Assembly (NCBI GenBank): GCA_025352825.1
Contig: JANXSG010000217.1
Coordinates: 1-42,226, forward strand
Length of the DNA stretch: 42,226 bases
Direction: 5' to 3'
Source: Chthonomonadaceae bacterium
GTDB lineage: Bacteria > Armatimonadota > Chthonomonadetes > Chthonomonadales > Chthonomonadaceae
Positions 13,680 through 24,880 of the stretch are shown in pieces. The notes beneath the pieces are model-generated. The model searched no databases and had not been told where the DNA came from. It saw only the letters and a list, made by a program, of their open reading frames with translations. The first letter of the stretch is position 1; every line of letters begins with the position of its first letter. The position numbers and the translations under genes were made by a program.

Positions 13680-16600
13680 ATGCGAACTCAATCTCGAGCA
13701 TTCAAAGTTGATCCGAATTCAATTTTCCGCATTGTGGGAGCGATACTTTGTTGTATTTTGACGCACAGCGCCCAAGCAATGGCCAGTGAACAGAAAACGG
13801 GCACACATGGTACTGCAATGAAACACGCAATTGCCAACTTCAGTGCAATGGCAGCTTGGGAAGCAGTAAATCCGCCTTCACCGAATGTCAGAAAGGTGCA
13901 TCATAGGCCTCTTACTCCTCTCCGAAGAGTTTCAAGCGGAAGCCTTGAATTCTCTCAGAGTGAGCCGCCTCCCGCACAGACGCCAGGAGGGCCACTCTCA
14001 CCTGCAACTTTTGTGAACTTCCTCGGCCTTGACGATAACGGGACTTCGATTCCACCGGATACAGATGGGTCAGTTGGTCCGAACCATGTGGTTACGGCTC
14101 TGAACACACAGGTGCGAATCCAGAATAAAATCGGAACTGTAATCAGTACTGTTTCGCTGAATGGATTCTGGAGCCCTGTCCTTGGTAACCGCGGTGCTTT
14201 CGACCCGAGATGCCAATACGACCCCTACGCTAATCGCTGGATTATGACTTCTGCAGCAGATAACAATTCACAAAATTCTGCTATTTTGGTCGCAGTTTCC
14301 CAAACGATTGATCCCACAGGAAACTGGAATTTCTACGCGATCAGTGCAGACCCAACTAACTCTACCTGGGCTGACTACGATCAGTTAGGATTCAGTAAGA
14401 AATGGCTCACAGTAACTGTCAACATGTTCACTTCTGCCGGCAGTTATGTCGGAATGCAGCTCTATGCACTCAACAAGCAGGACTTCTATAACAACGGTAC
14501 AGGGAAATATACACTGCTTACAGACTCTTCGGGATTCGCATTAGCTCCTGCAAGCACTTACGATCCAAATCTGGATACAGCCTACTTTCTTGAAATCTGG
14601 AATGGTAATTTCAATAATCAGGGATATCTTCGGATGAGTTCTATGACCGGCAATGTCGGTTCAGAAACATTAAATCCGGGTATTTTCTTCCCGACTGTGA
14701 ACAGCACCTGGAACGAATTTGACAGTGGTGATTATGCTCCACAGTCCGGCTCGACTAACAAAATTTCCAATGGTGACTGGCGAATGCATAATGTTGTGTA
14801 CAGAAACGGGTCTCTTTGGTGTACGCACAATGTCTTTCTTCCAACAGATAACTCCACGCACACTTCCGTACAATGGTGGCAGATAGATCTATCTGGTAAC
14901 ACGCAGCAGCTTGGGCGAATTGATGATCCAGCCGGAGCGATTTTCCGCGCTTTTCCAAGTATTGCCGTCAACTCTAACAACGATGTCCTCATCGGCTATT
15001 CGCGTTTTTCAGCGTCAACTTTTGCAAGTGGGGCGTACTCGTTCAGATTGGGAACCGACAGCCTAAATACTACGCAATCAGAAAATATTCTGAAGTCTGG
15101 TGAAGCATCCTACTTTAAAACCTTTGGTGGCGCCGAAAATCGATGGGGAGACTATAGCTCGACTGTGGTAGACCCTCTTGATGATCTGAGCATGTGGACT
15201 CTGCAGGAGTATGCTGCACTTCCGTCTGGCGGCCAGGATCGCTTCGGAACCTGGTGGGGTGAAATTTCTGCCGCAGCTAGCCAGACCAGTATCACCATTC
15301 CAAATTTTGGATTTGAAGCTCCTGTTCTTGCTGCCAACTCTTTCCAGTATAAGCCTTCCGGCGCTTCCTGGACATTCGTAGGAGGCTCTGGCATCAGCAC
15401 GAATGCGAGCGCTTTCACTGCAGCGAATCCCAACGCTCCTGAAGGCAAACAAGTGGGTATCCTTCAAGGCGGGGCCAACATTTCTCAGATTCTCAGCGGA
15501 TTCCAGAGCACATCTAACTACAAAGTCACGTTAGCAGCCGCTCAGAGAGGCAGCAACAACGCTACTTCACAGACATTCCAGATCAAGATCGATGATCAAG
15601 TTCTAGGCACTTTCACGCCAGGCAGCAAAAACTACGCCGACTTTACCACCAATCTCTTTACGCCTATCACTGGTAACCACACACTTACAGTACAGGGCAC
15701 AAACCCTAATGGCGGCGATAATACGGCATTCTTAGACAATGTACGAATCACGGGAGTCTCAAATGGCACCTCCCCCATTACTACATCTTATCTGGAAATA
15801 TACTCTGGCTCCGCGATGATAGGGCTCACCGCCAACTTCCGAGCTAAAATGTCGGTATTCCTGGGACAGGCAATTTCGGGAAGATCTATCACCTTTAGTA
15901 TTGATGGGACTAATATCGGATCGTCAACTACGGATGTCAACGGATTTGCGACTCTAGCCTACACTGTTCCTCCCTCCCTGGGAGTTGGTGTTAAGACGAT
16001 CACGGCAACATTTGCAGGCGATGCACAATACTCATCTGGATCTCGAAGTGGATCTTTTACGGTACTGCCCATCATCGATGGTATCGGTCTTGGCCCAGTG
16101 ACTTCCAAAGCCGGCAAGATAATGAATGCTGGGGCAAGGCTGATCACGTACTATGGTGCGGCTATCGCAGGAAGAAACCTCGATTTCTCGATTGATGGAG
16201 TAATTGTTGGATCAGTAATAACCGACTCCAATGGCGGAGCTAGACTAGTATATTTGCTTCCCCAAGAGACTGTGTTTGGGTCGCATAATCTGACAGCTTC
16301 TTTCGCTGGTGACAGTATCTATAAAGTGGTATTAAAAACGGTAATTCTGACGGTTCCACTATCAAATACTTCCCTGACTGTATCCAGCCAGTCGGGATCG
16401 CCCGGCCAGGTGAAAAATCTACAGTGCCGGCTATACAATGAAACTGGCCATGTGGCAGTGAACAGAACTGTAACCTTCAGTGTAAATTCTACAGCTGTTG
16501 GGACTGCAGTCACCGATGCGCTTGGGTATGGCAACCTTGCATATAAAATTCCAGACAACCTGGGAACTGGGCCAAAGACTATCGGGGTAAGTTTTGCTGG

Positions 16601-16943
16601 AGATACCGTCTATAACCCATCCACTGGAACAAATACTCTCACAATAGCGGCTGCGAATTCCTTGCTTTACATGGTAGATACCACTATCAACGCGGGTCAA
16701 TCGCTGCGACTGCCAGTTCGCCTTCTGGGTGCATCCGGAAATTACATCGCCGGACGAACTATTTCACTTACTGTCAATGGTGTCTCAGCAGGAACCACGG
16801 TAACTCAGGCTAATGGAGTCGGTGCCTTCACTTATACAATCCCATCCGGAACTGGCCTCGGACAGTTCACGATTACAGCCAGTTTCGCTGGGGACAGCGC
16901 TTATAACTCCTCTACTTCAAGTAAAACTCTCACTATCAAATAG
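13680..16943 (+). CDS. Large secreted protein with carbohydrate-binding-like module and four Ig-like repeats
   Basis: 1087 residues from an ATG with AGGGGA upstream. A signal-like segment (IVGAILCCILTHSAQA) begins near residue 17. Residues ~105-530 form a conserved domain starting FVNFLGLDDNGTSIPPDTDG with SVGPNHVV, seen in many bacterial exoproteins of unknown activity. Residues ~535-692 are a jelly-roll-like module (FGFEAPVLAANSFQYKPSG ... NGGDNTAFLDNVRI) resembling carbohydrate-binding domains. Four Ig-like (Big_3-type) repeats of ~95 residues follow, at about 703-797, 800-893, 894-991 and 992-1087, each ending near FAGD.xY and a final TLTI strand. It probably works on the cell surface or outside the cell as an adhesin or matrix protein. 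No LPXTG or other sorting signal is present. Confidence 0.85.
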   Translation: MRTQSRAFKVDPNSIFRIVGAILCCILTHSAQAMASEQKTGTHGTAMKHAIANFSAMAAWEAVNPPSPNVRKVHHRPLTPLRRVSSGSLEFSQSEPPPAQTPGGPLSPATFVNFLGLDDNGTSIPPDTDGSVGPNHVVTALNTQVRIQNKIGTVISTVSLNGFWSPVLGNRGAFDPRCQYDPYANRWIMTSAADNNSQNSAILVAVSQTIDPTGNWNFYAISADPTNSTWADYDQLGFSKKWLTVTVNMFTSAGSYVGMQLYALNKQDFYNNGTGKYTLLTDSSGFALAPASTYDPNLDTAYFLEIWNGNFNNQGYLRMSSMTGNVGSETLNPGIFFPTVNSTWNEFDSGDYAPQSGSTNKISNGDWRMHNVVYRNGSLWCTHNVFLPTDNSTHTSVQWWQIDLSGNTQQLGRIDDPAGAIFRAFPSIAVNSNNDVLIGYSRFSASTFASGAYSFRLGTDSLNTTQSENILKSGEASYFKTFGGAENRWGDYSSTVVDPLDDLSMWTLQEYAALPSGGQDRFGTWWGEISAAASQTSITIPNFGFEAPVLAANSFQYKPSGASWTFVGGSGISTNASAFTAANPNAPEGKQVGILQGGANISQILSGFQSTSNYKVTLAAAQRGSNNATSQTFQIKIDDQVLGTFTPGSKNYADFTTNLFTPITGNHTLTVQGTNPNGGDNTAFLDNVRITGVSNGTSPITTSYLEIYSGSAMIGLTANFRAKMSVFLGQAISGRSITFSIDGTNIGSSTTDVNGFATLAYTVPPSLGVGVKTITATFAGDAQYSSGSRSGSFTVLPIIDGIGLGPVTSKAGKIMNAGARLITYYGAAIAGRNLDFSIDGVIVGSVITDSNGGARLVYLLPQETVFGSHNLTASFAGDSIYKVVLKTVILTVPLSNTSLTVSSQSGSPGQVKNLQCRLYNETGHVAVNRTVTFSVNSTAVGTAVTDALGYGNLAYKIPDNLGTGPKTIGVSFAGDTVYNPSTGTNTLTIAAANSLLYMVDTTINAGQSLRLPVRLLGASGNYIAGRTISLTVNGVSAGTTVTQANGVGAFTYTIPSGTGLGQFTITASFAGDSAYNSSTSSKTLTIK

Positions 16944-16957
16944 TGCGTGTGAGCTGT

Positions 16958-17085
16958 ATTTAAAAGTCGGTGAAATTCGCATAATTTGCCCTCACCCCCC
17001 GACCCCCTCTCCCAAAAACAGGAGAGGGGAGCTTTAAATCGTTAGTTTCCTATCTCCCGTTTTGTGAGATATTCGCTTATAATAA
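16958..17085. repeat. Dispersed ~125-bp repeat, copy 1
   Basis: This stretch is the reverse complement, with minor changes, of 37575-37705. Matching blocks include AAAAGTCGG, GCCCTCACCCCCC, the hairpin CCCCTCTCCCAAAAAC with its complement (17004-17029), GAGCTTTAAATCGT and ATATTCGCTTATAATA. The element directly abuts the truncated 5' end of the TIG pseudogene and carries an in-frame stop (17043) relative to it. Confidence 0.85.
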
Positions 17086-18041
17086 GATCAATACCCGTAA
17101 CTATTCAGCATGATCAGATTACAGTTACTTCCAAGGGTATTCAAATCGCAATAAGAGGAGCATCGAACGCTCTGAGCATTGCGATTCAATCGCCTTCAAA
17201 AATTACAGGGCTCACTCCAAACAGTGCACTCCGCGGTGCAAAAGCAACCACGATCACTGTGTCTGGGAGCGGCTTTCAGACAGGTACCAAGGTAAGTTTT
17301 AGTGGCTCTCTGATTGCAACCACTTATGTCTCGGCCACAAAACTGAAAGGATTGATTCCTGCAGCCAGTCTGACAACGGCAGGTCTTTTCGCAGTTCAAA
17401 CTGTAAATACAGTGAATGGGAATTCAATAGCATCCGCTCCGGCAACATTAACTGTCAAATTCCCGCTGCCCGTACTGAAGAAGCTATTACCAGCCACGGC
17501 AGCCATCGGGACATCGTTCACAATGACACTATCGGGAACAGGCTTTGTCCCAGAATCGGTTGTGTTGTGGAACGGAGTTTCCCGACCGGTAACCTATACA
17601 AACAGTACATCTCTTAAGGTTATTGTTACAGGGTCAGATACGAGCCCTGGGAGTATCGCCGTACAGGTAGTTAATCCTGCTCCTGGTGGTTGAAGTTCTA
17701 CAACACTCCATCTACTCGTCGCCAATCCGAGTTTGTCGGTTAGTTATATCATGACCCGTGTGACCGCTACTCAGGTGAAACTGACCTACATTATCAAGAA
17801 TATTGATTCTGTAAGAGTTACGAATCTGAAACAGATTAATGCTTCATTAACGCTCTCGTCTCCAGTGCTCACAGTAGGAGGTACGCCATCTGCGGCAACC
17901 ATTTCCGCCGCATTGGAACCGGGTCTCTCTGTTACAAAGATCGTCACATTCACCAATACCCGACTCACAACAGGAACTTCTGCAAATCTTGCGCTCACCA
18001 TAGCTGCTGATGGTGGGTATTCACATCGGCTGGAGGAGTAG
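17064..18041 (+). pseudogene. Decayed IPT/TIG-domain exoprotein gene, 5' end lost, in-frame TGA
   Basis: Two open stretches, 17064-17693 and 17694-18041, are in the same frame and are separated only by a TGA at 17691-17693. The first holds two IPT/TIG domains (ITGLTPNSALRGAKATTITVSGSGF... and LKKLLPATAAIGTSF...). Both domains end as in this family: the second reads VVNPAPGG, then the stop, then SSTTLHLLV, exactly where a glycine-rich NPAPGGGSS linker is normal. A single GGA-to-TGA change would explain the stop. There is no signal peptide, ribosome site or credible start: upstream the frame runs into the dispersed repeat and a stop at 17043. The second part is a beta-rich tail. It is probably the 3' remnant of a cell-surface gene beside the intact Ig-repeat gene. 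A sequencing error at the TGA is the main alternative for that stop. Confidence 0.8.
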
Positions 18042-18107
18042 TTACGTTACCTTAAACGCCGTAGGGAAAATCTAAATACACTTTACTGCGTGTCTAAATA
18101 AAACATC

Positions 18108-18143
18108 AAAGTTCCAGCAATCTATTTAGATTGCTGGAACTTT
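18108..18143. terminator. Bidirectional terminator with 17-bp perfect stem
   Basis: AAAGTTCCAGCAATCTA, two bases, then its exact complement, followed by ATTT. It lies between the TIG remnant (plus) and the end of the three-gene PLP/ATP-grasp operon (minus). Confidence 0.85.
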
Positions 18144-18206
18144 ATTTGGTTAGCACTGTCCTACAAATTTTGCTAAACTTGATGCATTTGGAATCGCTGA
18201 AATTAT

Positions 18207-19475
18207 CTACTTTGAATTCACTCGGCGCAGCATCATATCGCGAAACTCATGAAAAACTCGCTTCATATGACGCGCCTTATATGGGAAGATTTCTGGCTGA
18301 TCCATGTTATGCACCACCAGCGCATTATCGGCTTCGAAAATGAGCAGTTTGCCATCCAGAGTTTCACCACAGTCAATTCCAAAATATTCCAGATTCAGCA
18401 GATCAGCCATTTTTGAGATAGCCTCCGAGTGTCGTCTCCCAAAATCATCTTCAAAGTTGTTCATAAACTGCTCTTCTTCGGTACGCTTCTCTTCACTTTC
18501 AAGCATACCGGCATTCACATAGTGGATCATCCAGTTATCGGAGATACCCATGTGGCTGGGATATGCTTTTCCCTCTATGACTGCGATTCGGTATTTACGA
18601 AACAGACCATCCACACTCCTGTAGTCGATAAATCTAGAAATAAAGAAGTCGTTTTCCATACGAAGAGAGAGATATTCAGCAAGTTCAAATCTATCATCAA
18701 TTTTTGCAAGGCCATGCCCGGCATGAGAGTCGAAGGGTCGGATAATCAGTGGTAACCCACCTTCAGTTAGTATCAAGGATAACTCTAATTCACTTACAGA
18801 AACTCTATCTAATGTCGATTTATCGGCACGAATGGTGGGCGGGATGAGAATGCTGGATATGGGCTCTAGAATTTTATATAACGCTTCTCGGCCAACCTGT
18901 GGAATAGCTGATGGCAGATTGATGATAGGTTTTTCCCAATCTGACAATATGCGTTCCAGTTCTCGGAAAACCTCGCGAGATTCTTCACACTCGGAAGCCA
19001 AAACAAACGCTAAATCGTGTTCAGGAAGTGGTGGCATCGGCATTCCCGGAACAACATAGACTACATACATCGTGATATCAGAATCTTCTATAAGGAACTC
19101 TATGGGAGTATTCGCGCTTATATTTCCGGCAGCAGCAAAGGCAAGAACTCTCAGTTTAGCATTTGAACTTTGAGCTGGTAACTGATAAAGCCGACACATA
19201 GTAAGCGCATGTTCCTGAAACACCAACCCCCGTTCGGCATTATCGTGCATCTGATCAATTAGGCACATGTCCATCAGTGCAGCCGCATCTGAACTATCTT
19301 TGGCAAAGCGCCCCGTAAGGTACTGCCAGATTGGTGACATATCGACTCCATCAAATCTCAATTTTCCTAGTTTTGCAAGGCCCAAAACAGGAGGGATAAA
19401 AGTATCCATAAGCTGATTTTCGGAAGGTGATTTCAAAGTATTTCCATTCTTAGAATACCTAAGCTGCTTTCTCAT
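18207..19475 (-). CDS. ATP-grasp domain protein, RimK-like ligase
   Basis: 422 residues. Residues ~105-215 form a Rossmann-like preATP-grasp part (LRVLAFAAAGNISANTPIEF; HDLAFVLASE). Residues ~220-415 are the ATP-grasp fold: LPLIIRPFDSHAGHGLAKI (nucleotide loop, Arg246), a substrate region FISRFIDYRSVDGLFRKYRI, and the metal site FGIDCGETLDGKLLIFEADN with Asp368, Glu381 and Asn384 as likely Mg ligands. ATP-grasp enzymes join a carboxylate, activated as acyl phosphate, to an amine or thiol. The N-terminal ~100 residues are helical and may be TPR-like. The start overlaps the preceding PLP gene by 17 bases, and its ribosome site is weak, so translation is likely coupled. Similar ligases with the same unusual N-terminal part occur in rhizobia, from memory; the substrates are unknown. 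Confidence 0.8.
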   Translation of the reverse strand: MRKQLRYSKNGNTLKSPSENQLMDTFIPPVLGLAKLGKLRFDGVDMSPIWQYLTGRFAKDSSDAAALMDMCLIDQMHDNAERGLVFQEHALTMCRLYQLPAQSSNAKLRVLAFAAAGNISANTPIEFLIEDSDITMYVVYVVPGMPMPPLPEHDLAFVLASECEESREVFRELERILSDWEKPIINLPSAIPQVGREALYKILEPISSILIPPTIRADKSTLDRVSVSELELSLILTEGGLPLIIRPFDSHAGHGLAKIDDRFELAEYLSLRMENDFFISRFIDYRSVDGLFRKYRIAVIEGKAYPSHMGISDNWMIHYVNAGMLESEEKRTEEEQFMNNFEDDFGRRHSEAISKMADLLNLEYFGIDCGETLDGKLLIFEADNALVVHNMDQPEIFPYKARHMKRVFHEFRDMMLRRVNSK

Positions 19476-21033
19476 ATTCTCTTGGGAGATGCCGAATCAA
19501 TAGTTCAATTTTATCAAGTAAAGCGCGTATCTCTTCCGCTTCTGGCTCGATATTAACCGACTTAGATCGATTGCTCCGTTTCCAAATAGTCGAAACCGTG
19601 CGCGCGCTCGCGCAGATGCGGAGAGCTCCTGTAGAATCGTATTCTCCTGAAGAAATCGCCACTGGCTGGCCAAGATGATATAATTGAGCAGCTACTGCTT
19701 TTTCTGCACCTGAAATGAACGCTGGAAGTGAGTGAACCATGTTCTGATTGAGAGATTTATAGATGTCAACTGAATCGGCGGCAGATAGTAACTGATTTAC
19801 ATGTCTTAAGAGTATTGGAAAAATCGTTTTGTAGACCATCTCCTCGTCGATGCTATCAGCACTATTGGCATCCTGCCCTGGCATAGGCTGAATGTTGGGA
19901 AAAGACTCACATATCTGGTTCGAAACCATACTTTCAAACTGGGAGAGGGCCTGCACACGAAATTCCAAAGGGACTTCGAAGTACGATCGCATTTCATGCA
20001 GTGCTGCGGACCAACGAAAATACTGCCCTAAGTTATCACCTGGATCGAATTGTGTTCGTATATTTGTCCATGCAATCGGCCAGTCACCCCTTGTCGTGTA
20101 GTCGGTGAGTCTTACTGGCGTATGATTACAAGCGGCAATACGATTGCTAAGCGATTTCGGAACCAGGAGAGCTCCGCTAAAAGGAGGCCCTGTGAAATAT
20201 TTTGAGCCACTAATAAGAACAATATGCTCCTGATCCAGATGCCATTTAAGTCGTGCCCGGCTTAATCGCATCTGACAGGCATCTACTACAACGTGAACTT
20301 CATCACAAAATCGACTCTTTACAACCTGAAGACACTCGTGGCTGGGTGATCTTAATCCAGTTTTTGAACTATCCATCGCCTGAAGAAGTACCTCATGCCC
20401 CGACTTGACGGAACGCGAAACCAAATCACACACTTCCTGATCTAGTTCATCTGCAGATTTCGGATACCCATTCCTGCCGCGAACAGCAATTGGTAAGACA
20501 GATACACCTTCGGATAGTCCACCTATGGGAGCACCCTTTTGCACATCCATCCCGCGTGACGTCACCTTACTGAAATGCCTGCCCAGGAGAGCATTTGGTA
20601 CACCACTCCCAGTCTCATCCGCTGCTAACAAAATACAATCCAGTGGTCTGTTGCCCGCAATCCCCTTAATGATATATAAGGATTGAAGAGTCGAATCCGT
20701 ACCGGATGGAGAGAACACAACCTCATTACCACTTTTTCCAATACCTAATACTTCTAAAAGTTCCTGACGTAAGATTTCGAATGCAGTATCCAAACTGTCT
20801 AGAGCATAAGCACTCGTACGAAGCTTTCTCTGCAAATACTCCAAATGCCGATATGCCTCAAAGGATATGGAACTCGCAGTCGAGGACCCAAAACTATGTG
20901 TGTTTGGGCGAGGTAAAGGGCTGCAGCTAAAACTATTTAATCCAGAATTTTTATCGACAGCAATGCGTGAATCCCCACCACTTATCAATATCTCTTCTGT
21001 AGGCACACACAAAATATCAAGAAATCTGCTCAT
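19459..21033 (-). CDS. Fold-type I PLP enzyme, aminotransferase class V / cysteine-desulfurase-like
   Basis: 524 residues. PLP-binding features are in the order of class V enzymes: a phosphate-binding SPSGTDS (108-114), an aspartate for the pyridine nitrogen in VVVDACQMRLS (Asp251) and the Schiff-base lysine in ISGSKYFTGPPFSGALL (Lys278). The C-terminal domain is longer than in kynureninase or NifS and ends in a helical tail. Reaction type (transamination, C-S or C-C lyase, or desulfuration) cannot be read from the sequence. The start ATG overlaps the stop of the decarboxylase gene (ATGA), with AGGGG just upstream. Being sandwiched between a decarboxylase and an ATP-grasp ligase points to a shared biosynthetic pathway. 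It is clearly a PLP enzyme; the substrate is unknown. Confidence 0.8.
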   Translation of the reverse strand: MSRFLDILCVPTEEILISGGDSRIAVDKNSGLNSFSCSPLPRPNTHSFGSSTASSISFEAYRHLEYLQRKLRTSAYALDSLDTAFEILRQELLEVLGIGKSGNEVVFSPSGTDSTLQSLYIIKGIAGNRPLDCILLAADETGSGVPNALLGRHFSKVTSRGMDVQKGAPIGGLSEGVSVLPIAVRGRNGYPKSADELDQEVCDLVSRSVKSGHEVLLQAMDSSKTGLRSPSHECLQVVKSRFCDEVHVVVDACQMRLSRARLKWHLDQEHIVLISGSKYFTGPPFSGALLVPKSLSNRIAACNHTPVRLTDYTTRGDWPIAWTNIRTQFDPGDNLGQYFRWSAALHEMRSYFEVPLEFRVQALSQFESMVSNQICESFPNIQPMPGQDANSADSIDEEMVYKTIFPILLRHVNQLLSAADSVDIYKSLNQNMVHSLPAFISGAEKAVAAQLYHLGQPVAISSGEYDSTGALRICASARTVSTIWKRSNRSKSVNIEPEAEEIRALLDKIELLIRHLPREYEKAA

Positions 21034-22481
21034 TTGCCCCTCATCTGGTTTCCCAAACGACAGATTTCTTCCACTAGCAGATCAAGATCCTCCGTCATCG
21101 TTCTGTGATTAGTTATCGAGACACGAATGGCAGTGTGTCCCTTAATGGTGGTAGTAGAGGGAGCCGCGATCCCTGAAAGCTGCAGTTCCGTGACGATCCT
21201 GATATTTAGCTGATCAAGCTCAATCTCTGGGACACCTCGGTCATAGTATCGGAAACAAACAATGTTGAGTGTAACTTCTGCCAGAAGCTGAAGACCGCTA
21301 TTGGATTTTACTAATTCACCAAGATATCTGGCCTGATTACAGTTCTGAGTGATAAGCTCAGCAAACCGATCCATTCCATAGGCCTGCATTGTGAACCACA
21401 CTTTGAGAGCTCGAAATCCTCTCGAAAGCTCAGGGCCATATTCACAGAACCAAGGTTCACCACCCGCCAATCCGCAGTCTAGGCCAGCCAGGTATACGCC
21501 TCTGCTGGAAAATGCTTTTCGATGTTCGGCCTCATTTTTTATGAGTACACATCCTGCATCGTAAGGAACATGCATCCACTTGTGGAAATCGAAAGCAATG
21601 GAGTCCGCTAGCGAAATAGCAGTTAACCGCCCATGGAATTCAGGAGCCAAAATAGCCAGCCCGCCAAACGCACCATCAACATGCATCCAGATATCCTGAT
21701 TGTGACAGATATCTGCGATGCGTTTCAGGTCATCTATGGCACCGGTATTGACTGTGCCAGCTGAGGCAATAACTGCAATGGGACACAGCCCATTCATTCT
21801 ATCTTCAGAGATACGGTGTTTCAGCGCTTCAATATCCATTCGATATTCACTATCCACTGGAATTCGGCGCAGTGCATCGTGTCCTAAACCTAGCAGTTCG
21901 AACGCTTTCGCAGCGCTGCAGTGCGCTTCACTGGATGTATACCCAACGAGCCTGGAGGGCATTCCTGCCAAACCAAGTTTTTGAATATCTCCACCTGCGT
22001 GAGTATTCCTGGCTACCTTGAGTGCAATCAGGGTTCCCATAGAAGTTCCTGTAGTGATAATTCCACTGCTCTCAAACGGGAAATTGAAAATGTTTTTGCA
22101 CCAGTTCAAAACCTGCCTTTCGATATACACAGCAGCATGATCACGGCCCCCTGCATTACTGTTCATGAAGGCAGCAAGCATCTCCCCCATCACGCCGGCG
22201 ATATTTCCACTGCCATGCACCCAGCCAAAAAATCGGGGATGTGTATTGCCGTTACTAAATGGAAGAATAGACTCATTAAAAAAACTGTTCAGCTCGTAAA
22301 GCGATCTCTCGCCGGTGGGCACAGGCACATTCTGACGAAGAACTGATTCTTTTGCCACTGGCTGCCATACTGGTCGATTGCGAACCGACTTCATATTGTT
22401 CATACATTGATCCACTGCCTGATGAAAAGCGAAGCCAACTTCGTCCCATTCTTCCGGATCGAGAGTTGTTTCGCTGATCAT
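21030..22481 (-). CDS. Group II PLP-dependent decarboxylase (aromatic-L-amino-acid decarboxylase-like)
   Basis: 483 residues, the family's usual length. Conserved features are present: TTGTSMGTLIALKVAR (cofactor phosphate), SSEAHCSAAKA (His187, stacking on the cofactor), MHVDGAFGG (Asp269) and DSIAFDFHKWMHVPYDAG (Lys301, Schiff base). These enzymes turn an L-amino acid into an amine and CO2; the group includes enzymes for tyrosine, DOPA, tryptophan, histidine, 2,4-diaminobutyrate and glutamate. Which substrate is used here is not visible. It is first in a minus-strand operon of three overlapping genes. The start ATG has only a weak AGGC upstream. The 417-base gap before it is divergent with an ABC transporter operon. 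Confidence 0.88.
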   Translation of the reverse strand: MISETTLDPEEWDEVGFAFHQAVDQCMNNMKSVRNRPVWQPVAKESVLRQNVPVPTGERSLYELNSFFNESILPFSNGNTHPRFFGWVHGSGNIAGVMGEMLAAFMNSNAGGRDHAAVYIERQVLNWCKNIFNFPFESSGIITTGTSMGTLIALKVARNTHAGGDIQKLGLAGMPSRLVGYTSSEAHCSAAKAFELLGLGHDALRRIPVDSEYRMDIEALKHRISEDRMNGLCPIAVIASAGTVNTGAIDDLKRIADICHNQDIWMHVDGAFGGLAILAPEFHGRLTAISLADSIAFDFHKWMHVPYDAGCVLIKNEAEHRKAFSSRGVYLAGLDCGLAGGEPWFCEYGPELSRGFRALKVWFTMQAYGMDRFAELITQNCNQARYLGELVKSNSGLQLLAEVTLNIVCFRYYDRGVPEIELDQLNIRIVTELQLSGIAAPSTTTIKGHTAIRVSITNHRTMTEDLDLLVEEICRLGNQMRGK

Positions 22482-22898: not shown

Positions 22899-23642
22899 AT
22901 GATAGAAGCAATCCAACTCAGTAAAATATTTAAAGATAAGAAACGTGGTGAAGTTCGAGCCGCTGATGGCGTCAGTTTATCGTGTCAGCCAGGAGAAATT
23001 TTTGGTCTTCTTGGGCCAAATGGCGCTGGTAAAACCACCACACTCCGGATGCTGGCAACTATCCTGGAGCCTACGAGTGGCAGCGCAACTATCGCAGGTT
23101 TCGATGTACGCACACAGGGACAGCAGGTACGGCAGAACATAGGTTATCTTTCCGGCTCGACAGCTCTTTATGAACGCCTCACTGCCCGCGAAATGGTCAC
23201 CTATTTTGGTGAACTATACGGTCTTGAATCATCTCAAATCAAAAGTAGGATTGAAGAGGTTTTTACTGAATTAGATATGCATGAGTTTGCCGACCGCCGA
23301 TGTGATAAACTATCCACAGGTCAAAAACAGCGCGTGTCTATAGCAAGGACTATTCTCCATCGCCCTGCCGTACTCTTTTTTGATGAGCCCACCAACGGCC
23401 TGGATGTCGTCACTGCGCGAACTATCATCCGATTTATAAGAAGATGCCGAAATGAAGGTCGTACTGTCGTGTTTTCGACTCATATTATGAGCGAAGTCGA
23501 ATTGCTCTGTGACAGAATAGCGGTTATTTATAACGGCAAAGTTGCAGCCACAGGCACTCTCGAGGAACTGCGTGCACAAACGGGTAAACAGGTCTTCGAG
23601 CAAGTCTTTCTCAAGCTCATAGGCGAGGAGGATGAAGAGTGA
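22899..23642 (+). CDS. ABC transporter ATP-binding protein, NatA-like
   Basis: 247 residues. All ATPase motifs are present: Walker A GPNGAGKTT (39-47), signature LSTGQKQRV (138-146) and Walker B LFFDEPTNGLD with Asp162 and Glu163, then a switch histidine in FSTHIMSEVE. The SGSTALYERLTAREMV region resembles NatA of the Na+ exporter and related ABC-2 systems. It energises the membrane subunit encoded next, whose start overlaps this stop by 4 bases (GTGA). Substrate is not determined by sequence: sodium, a drug, or the product of the divergent biosynthetic operon are all possible. Confidence 0.9.
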   Translation: MIEAIQLSKIFKDKKRGEVRAADGVSLSCQPGEIFGLLGPNGAGKTTTLRMLATILEPTSGSATIAGFDVRTQGQQVRQNIGYLSGSTALYERLTAREMVTYFGELYGLESSQIKSRIEEVFTELDMHEFADRRCDKLSTGQKQRVSIARTILHRPAVLFFDEPTNGLDVVTARTIIRFIRRCRNEGRTVVFSTHIMSEVELLCDRIAVIYNGKVAATGTLEELRAQTGKQVFEQVFLKLIGEEDEE

Positions 23643-24880
23643 GCGACAGTAATTCGACATCCCCCACTCCTTTGATAGACAGCGGCCATCAGAAAAGCAG
23701 AATCTTAACTATACTCAAAAAAGAGTTTAGAGAGATATTTCGCGATAGGCGTACTGTAATGTCGGTTGTGATCTCCCCGCTGATAATCACACCTGCATTG
23801 TTCGCACTGATGGGCACACTCATCAGCGGACAAACAGAAAAGATAAAATCCAAAACCTATTCGGTAGGGATTGTTCGAAGTGAAGAAGCACCCCAGCTCT
23901 ATAAAGCGGTGCAGGCAATACCAAATTTCAAATTTACGACTATAGAAGAAAACAAGGCAGAAAACTGGGTTAAAGATCGCAGAGGCCAGGCTGTCATTAT
24001 TCTACCAGCACAGGCCGATTCTGCTCTTGTACACAGTTCCGTGCCGATTCAAATACTCCAGGATCCCGGAAAAGAGGAATCGCTGGCAGCTTCCAGCCGA
24101 TTGTCACAGGCATTTACTCTCATTGGGCAGCAGTATGTGAAACAGCGATTAATCTCAAGCGGCCTTCCCGGCGATTATGCCACTCCGTTTCATATCACGG
24201 AAAAGCAGATTTCCGAAAGTGGCGGGGCAGGAACATTTATACTCTCCATGATGCTGCCGTATATTCTGGTCGTGTCCGCTTTCAGCGGGGCGATCTACGC
24301 AGCTTTCGATCAGGTGGCAGGAGAAAAAGAACGCGGTACACTTGAAACTCTCTTGGTCTCCCCCGCTTCACGCAGTGACATCGTGATAGGTAAATTCCTG
24401 GCAGTGGTTGGGGTATGCCTGCTTAGCAGCATCCTCTCCATCACAGGCCTAATATTCTCCTTTACCAGTAAAGCAAAATCCTTCGCGTGGCTTTCTCAGG
24501 GTGGGCTTCATCTCAGCTCTGCAGCCATCGGAGTCACACTGCTTGTGATGATTCCACTGGCTGTACTTTTTGCTGGGCTTCTCCTGGCGGTCTCAACTTT
24601 TGCACGCAATCAGAAAGAAGCGCAAACATATCTCGCTCCACTCTTTATTTTCGTGCTGATGCCAGCAATGGCATCTATGTTCATCGGCACTGACGTTGGT
24701 AAATCAATCGCATTGGTCCCAGTTCTGAACGCCTCCATCATCATCAAGCAGGCGCTTAGCGGATCCTACGATCCTGGCTTTATATCCATTGCATTCGCCG
24801 CTTCTGCTGTGTATGCCGGAATTGCACTTTTCATCGCCACCCGGCTGTTCCATAAAGAGAGTGTACTCATCAAAGCATAG
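23639..24880 (+). CDS. ABC-2 type permease, NatB-like
   Basis: 413 residues from a GTG start with a GGAGGATGA ribosome site. It has one N-terminal membrane helix (TVMSVVISPLIITPALFALM) after the conserved KKEFREIFRDRRT stretch, then a ~150-residue extracytoplasmic domain. Five or six helices follow, with the family motif AGEKERGTLETLLVSPASR at the end of the first cytoplasmic loop. This layout is that of NatB and other exporters of the ABC-2 class. With the NatA-like subunit it forms the exporter. The stop is 11 bases before a promoter for korA. Confidence 0.88.
   Translation: MSDSNSTSPTPLIDSGHQKSRILTILKKEFREIFRDRRTVMSVVISPLIITPALFALMGTLISGQTEKIKSKTYSVGIVRSEEAPQLYKAVQAIPNFKFTTIEENKAENWVKDRRGQAVIILPAQADSALVHSSVPIQILQDPGKEESLAASSRLSQAFTLIGQQYVKQRLISSGLPGDYATPFHITEKQISESGGAGTFILSMMLPYILVVSAFSGAIYAAFDQVAGEKERGTLETLLVSPASRSDIVIGKFLAVVGVCLLSSILSITGLIFSFTSKAKSFAWLSQGGLHLSSAAIGVTLLVMIPLAVLFAGLLLAVSTFARNQKEAQTYLAPLFIFVLMPAMASMFIGTDVGKSIALVPVLNASIIIKQALSGSYDPGFISIAFAASAVYAGIALFIATRLFHKESVLIKA

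Follow-up and report, generated by a model that had tools for sequence, protein, structure and literature searches.

How might a bacterium use two PLP enzymes and an ATP-grasp ligase that are encoded together in overlapping genes? The question is raised by an operon in a Chthonomonadaceae genome (contig JANXSG010000217.1), within a 42,226-nucleotide stretch of DNA which we analysed whole and refer to as the window. The operon (Table 1) consists of three minus-strand ORFs, coding in turn for a decarboxylase, for what we call the middle protein, and for the ligase. A sequence-only reading had described overlaps of 4 and 17 bases between them, and both lie where it placed them, the longer one hinging on the choice of start codon, as the ligase has an alternative in-frame ATG at residue 23. 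The GC content of the operon is that of the window. Directly downstream, on the opposite strand, are genes for TIG/Ig-like surface proteins (13680-18041), with ORFs of 1087, 209 and 102 aa, the last two of which are possibly one broken gene.

Table 1. Features of the operon, in window positions.
Feature	Position	Strand	Remarks
Group II PLP decarboxylase	21030..22481	-	483 aa; Pfam PF00282
Middle protein, class-V aminotransferase-fold PLP protein	19459..21033	-	524 aa; predicted fold
TPR-ATP-grasp ligase	18207..19475	-	422 aa; alternative start possible at residue 23
TPR-like four-helix module, ligase residues 33-93	19197..19379	-	AF2 helices 33-41, 47-59, 64-76, 80-93
RimK-like ATP-grasp core, ligase residues 105-422	18210..19163	-	structure match
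ATGA stop/start overlap, decarboxylase and middle protein, 4 bases	21030..21033	-	
Overlap of middle protein and ATP-grasp genes, 17 bases, if the first ATG is used	19459..19475	-	
Terminator-like hairpin, 17-bp stem, just 3' of the operon	18107..18144	-	

Three proteins and their predicted folds

By sequence, the decarboxylase belongs clearly to the group II PLP enzymes, as had been proposed: it matches the Pfam family Pyridoxal_deC at 222.6 bits against a cut-off of 27, and the PLP lysine K301 (codon 21579-21581), the cofactor aspartate D269, the stacking histidine H187 and the catalytic-loop tyrosine Y330 are all present. At least 95% of the 38 relatives keep K301, D269, H187, R113 and Y330, the invariant R113 lying in a loop which, in related enzymes, is turned towards the substrate, and the nearest solved relative is the tryptophan decarboxylase of R. 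gnavus (4obu). A close paralog of this enzyme occurs on Ensifer plasmids in a two-gene unit with a CysK/O-ureidoserine-synthase-like enzyme (L205 4847-7455 and L206 3820-6434), which looks like another undescribed amine pathway; by eye, two genes resembling those for the binding proteins of iron/siderophore ABC systems lie close to the L206 unit.

The middle protein matches no Pfam or NCBIfam family. The Aminotran_5 profile (PF00266) has no match to it and only one among 49 relatives (E 0.007), and sequence profiles gave no significant match between the middle protein and either SerC or the decarboxylase. Its AF2 model (pLDDT 92.4) aligns with NifS (Z 22.8, rmsd 3.8, 347 aligned) and, at Z about 22, with AGT, PhnW and C-DES, AGT and PhnW being tied. 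The protein is thereby placed in the class-V aminotransferase fold by comparison of predicted structure only, which supports the earlier call of a class V-like PLP enzyme as a remote assignment and leaves its reaction unspecified. K278 in SGSKYF (codon 20200-20202) is the candidate and probable PLP lysine, accompanied by D251 and Q254 in VDACQ, an Asp-x-x-Gln motif, and by SGTD at 110-113; K278, D251 and Q254 are invariant in the 49 relatives. NRPS clusters provide a second setting for this family: some large NRPS genes on Sinorhizobium and Rhizobium plasmids have a member at their 3' end (L019 9959-11494, L021 7980-9476 and L025 11959-13494), in some cases with genes for a SagB-type dehydrogenase or a 4'-phosphopantetheinyl transferase nearby.

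The ligase, too, matches no Pfam family; its sole match in NCBIfam is to CofF, at 15.9 bits and below the cut-off, and the RimK profile (PF08443) matches 1 of 40 relatives (E 7e-4) and not the window protein. The ATP-grasp assignment is likewise a remote call supported by fold prediction. In the AF2 model (pLDDT 92.3, with about 25 low-confidence residues), the core aligns best with RimK (Z 18.9, rmsd 3.9, 267 aligned), followed by LysX (Z 17.5), ArgX (17.4), glutathione synthetase (16.3) and the D-Ala-D-Ala ligases (Ddl, 15.5), so that, as modelled, it is structurally nearest to the protein-modifying ligases RimK and LysX/ArgX. Candidate Mg ligands are D368, E381 and D383/N384, of which D368 and E381 are conserved. 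The N-terminal part of ~200 residues had been described as unusual; the AF2 model and the family profile resolve it into a TPR-like module and a normal pre-ATP-grasp subdomain. Independently of the model, a search with the family profile hit both consensus TPR proteins and the O-GlcNAc transferase TPRs, and Pfam TPR is matched in some family members. The window protein has only about two repeats, which may be too few for protein binding; much longer arrays are found in the homologues L100 and L105.

The trio as one conserved unit

Is this grouping more than an accident of one contig? A contig scan with the middle protein returned 231 relatives, from which 80 loci were kept for analysis, most of them as mechanical ORFs with profile checks and not as curated gene calls, and many from MAGs with short contigs. 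All three genes are present in 56 of the 80, several of the others being cut by contig ends. A second full trio, in the same order and 57-77% identical, lies on another contig of the window genome, where the middle and ATP-grasp genes do not overlap. As the trio is together in those 56 loci of other genomes and at a second place in its own, chance grouping is excluded. Single-ORF fusions exist in every pairing, joining the middle protein to the ligase (L031, L037, L038), the decarboxylase to the ligase (L084, L109) and the decarboxylase to the middle protein (L100, L105), and pairwise protein distances within 59 trios correlate with r = 0.75-0.88, a figure that includes shared species history. 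The three genes are one conserved, co-diverging functional unit; on this point conserved neighbours, fusions and correlated divergence all bear out the sequence-only reading.

The unit is patchy in its own order, since the ATP-grasp gene was not found in the 30 other genomes of that order searched, but its relatives elsewhere do sit together. The operon reading was to fail if the genes proved to be apart in related genomes, and in the sense meant it is not refuted on that ground. In a concatenated tree, both window-genome copies nest among alphaproteobacterial and Acidobacteriales sequences, a placement consistent with horizontal transfer.

Two further ideas about the operon were set aside. 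The divergent ABC-2 exporter adjoining it (22899-24880) had been suggested to move the product. At 347.9 bits, under the cut-off of 435, its permease is similar to the ABC permease/CPBP family. We reject the link, as the second copy has other neighbours (RND-efflux genes and an AAA ATPase) and no exporter recurs with the trio, and regard this one as a generic transporter that is not tied to it. A role in phage defence was also rejected: PADLOC gave no match for either the ligase or the middle protein and only weak DndA/SspA matches for the decarboxylase, and no phage relatives of the ligase were found.

Flagellar neighbourhoods and variant gene sets

Where, then, does the trio reside? Neighbouring genes were read, the key ones being confirmed with Pfam, and several lineages of Alpha-, Beta- and Gammaproteobacteria repeatedly showed the trio within a flagellar gene cluster. 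In Bradyrhizobium the order is flgE-flgK-flgL-[trio]-flbT-flagellins, in Sulfuriferula and Methylobacter it is trio-flagellin-flaG-fliD, and other flagellar genes accompany the trio in Sideroxydans, Rhodoferax, Nitrosomonadales, Gallionellaceae, Rhizobium BK376 and a Rhodospirillales MAG. When all loci were screened with one shared set of seeds, flagellar genes flanked the full trio at 27 of 56 (17 of 18 in Bradyrhizobium and 10 of 38 elsewhere, L085 being counted only by a weak FlaG match); at the remaining 28 of the 38, the retrieved flanks, in many cases short ones, contain none. Independent seeds from outside these loci confirmed the filament and hook genes near trios. Flagellar genes occurred in 0 of 59 control windows (665 kb) taken from these same genomes, giving a Fisher p of 4e-5 for the non-Bradyrhizobium loci against controls, with kinship among carriers ignored; the controls lie for the most part at contig starts and do not reach the length of the trio loci. 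An FlmG-like TPR-glycosyltransferase is found near some trios.

Flagellin is common among the genomes that carry these genes, being present in 45 of 50, as compared with 172 of 321 genomes in the class of Sulfuriferula and 194 of 291 in the window's own phylum (54-67%); the enrichment has p values of 2e-7 and 3e-4 against the two backgrounds, again ignoring kinship among carriers. Three of the five carriers without flagellin lack a full trio, the other two being full-trio MAGs (L067, L068). The window genome encodes six flagellin-domain proteins. Neither of its operon copies adjoins flagellar genes, and for this reason the flagellar link in this genome rests on its relatives. At one trio locus in a Caulobacteraceae MAG (L106 15640-17942), the adjoining genes are those of Flp pilus assembly (RcpC/CpaB and a secretin), and not flagellar ones.

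Variant loci were sought with the ligase over 321 genomes. Pairs of decarboxylase and ligase without the middle gene are found at L192, L193, L194 and L195/L196, of which the pair at L193 is divergent from flagellin-flaG-flagellin-flaG-fliD. Other ligases are paired with SerC: one such pair (L197) runs with fliT-fliS-flaG-fliD-flagellin, another (L204, in G094), from the window's own phylum, is 4 kb from a flagellin gene, and a third, on a Paraburkholderia plasmid, has no flagellar neighbours. At L198 the ligase is near fliK. Judged by its profile score, the ligase-linked SerC is a SerC or nearly so, and in both G590 and G094 it is an extra copy. The TPR ligase is thus the constant core, and the set of PLP partners varies, as would be expected if the choice of amine for attachment by the ligase lay with the PLP enzymes. 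The SerC variants, together with the CysK-like pairing, give a hint of a small beta-substituted alanine, for example phosphoserine, or of its decarboxylated amine.

A possible role in flagellar modification

We tentatively favour the reading that the trio is a conserved PLP-ligase module modifying flagella, be it flagellin or its glycan, and would place this a little short of an even chance. An amine or amino acid made for the purpose would come from the PLP enzymes; the ligase would activate a carboxylate with ATP and join it to that amine, by analogy with RimK, LysX and ArgX; and its TPR part might dock it onto a protein, much as the TPR domain of Caulobacter FlmG binds flagellins (PMC7591256). 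The acceptor would most often be flagellin and, in the window genome, at least one of the six flagellin-domain proteins would be the target of the duplicated operon. In favour of this reading are the cohesion of the unit, the flagellar settings of trios and variants, the share of carriers with flagellin, the RimK-like core, the TPR module and the FlmG precedent. Against it stand the lack of flagellar genes beside both window-genome copies and in the retrieved flanks of 28 of 38 non-Bradyrhizobium trios, the two full-trio MAGs without flagellin, the middle protein standing alone in rhizobial NRPS settings, the pilus neighbours at L106 and the small number of TPR repeats. A more specific form of this reading is that the TPR-docked, RimK-like ligase makes amides directly between flagellin carboxylates and an amine or amino acid drawn from exchangeable PLP enzymes, as a bacterial protein modification class of its own; this we hold to be possible, if somewhat doubtful.

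Would the ligase have to touch flagellin at all? A small amide, either an amino-acyl amine or an amidated acid, could be loaded onto a sugar and reach the filament within the flagellin glycan, a route that strikes us as rather unlikely. The flagellar context of the trio would suit it, as would the glycosyltransferase-like genes that adjoin the Bradyrhizobium trio, and flagellin sugars decorated with amides are known, such as the N-acetylglutamine-substituted Pse of Campylobacter. There is also a precedent in the sfmABCDE flagellin-modification operon of Shewanella, which includes an ATP-grasp_4 domain protein but differs in its PseI-like, reductase and methyltransferase partners, with no PLP enzymes reported, and makes a nonulosonic-acid glycan (PMC3765264). 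However, we saw no consistent coupling of sugar-nucleotide enzymes to the trio, and the TPR module and RimK/LysX-like core favour a protein acceptor.

The sequence-only reading had proposed a free small amide or dipeptide-like metabolite. Its chemistry, in which the amine from the decarboxylase is joined by the ATP-grasp ligase, remains the best logic for these genes, whilst the recurrent context points away from a free product and towards flagella. We consider it improbable that the product is a signal, a siderophore part or an antibiotic, with the flagellar neighbourhoods being incidental or regulatory. Such a role would account for the absence of flagellar genes beside both window-genome copies and most non-Bradyrhizobium loci, and for the placement of the middle-protein family at the end of rhizobial NRPS genes, but it sits poorly with flagellar clusters in unrelated lineages, the decarboxylase-only and SerC variants included, with the prevalence of flagellin among carriers, and with the want of a conserved exporter. 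Less probable still, to our minds, is that in some hosts this is a protein-modifying module with another surface appendage as its target, such as a Flp pilin or an adhesin, flagellin being one target among them. The L106 trio beside CpaB/RcpC and secretin genes, the large TIG-domain surface-protein genes next to the window operon and the two full-trio genomes without flagellin speak for this possibility; against it, the pilus case is a single one, and nearly all carriers have flagellin.

How would a flagellum-modifying module of this kind compare with what is known? In the methanofuran pathway, the tyrosine decarboxylase MfnA works with MfnD, an ATP-grasp tyramine-glutamate ligase, and the trio is alike in that a group II decarboxylase would supply the amine to an ATP-grasp ligase. 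Nonetheless, the trio ligase has no match to MfnD, a third PLP enzyme and a flagellar link are found on the trio side only, and the decarboxylase reaches 104.9 bits against the MfnA equivalog, far below the cut-off of 299.4, on which ground we rejected a pathway of the methanofuran type. RimK, LysX and ArgX share the core fold of the ligase, and use ATP to link protein carboxylates to amines through an amide bond; they differ in having no TPR and no PLP partner genes, and in their identity of ~15%. FlmG resembles the ligase in its N-terminal TPR and C-terminal transfer or ligation domain, both proteins being cytoplasmic, and many relatives of the ligase, though neither window-genome copy, lie at a flagellar locus, whereas FlmG is a GT-B glycosyltransferase that moves pseudaminic acid (PMC7591256) and the window protein is an ATP-grasp enzyme with PLP partner enzymes. 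The window ligase is not a FlmG; at most, it works like one.

Flagellin modification itself is known in many forms, and the trio appears to be an undescribed module: in the open-access literature we found no described pathway with this gene set, and no flagellin system based on an ATP-grasp enzyme and a decarboxylase. Should the proposed role be true, the flagella of many environmental proteobacteria, and of the window genome, would carry an unrecognised decoration added via an ATP-grasp ligase and not a glycosyltransferase, with interchangeable PLP enzymes selecting the group to be attached; if the ligase were to act on flagellin directly, this could be a new class of protein modification. 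A PLP family that is missing from Pfam would also gain a function, as would the TPR-ATP-grasp family, whose members are now annotated only as a 'tetratricopeptide repeat' or 'RimK-like' protein.

The ligase of Rhizobium tumorigenes (L018 9980-11692) has an extra C-terminal domain of ~140 aa that appears, by eye, to be a cysteine peptidase (C39-like), and the SerC-paired ligase of G094 (L204 9306-11510; L006) bears an N-terminal extension of ~300 aa with a HEFGH metallopeptidase-like motif.
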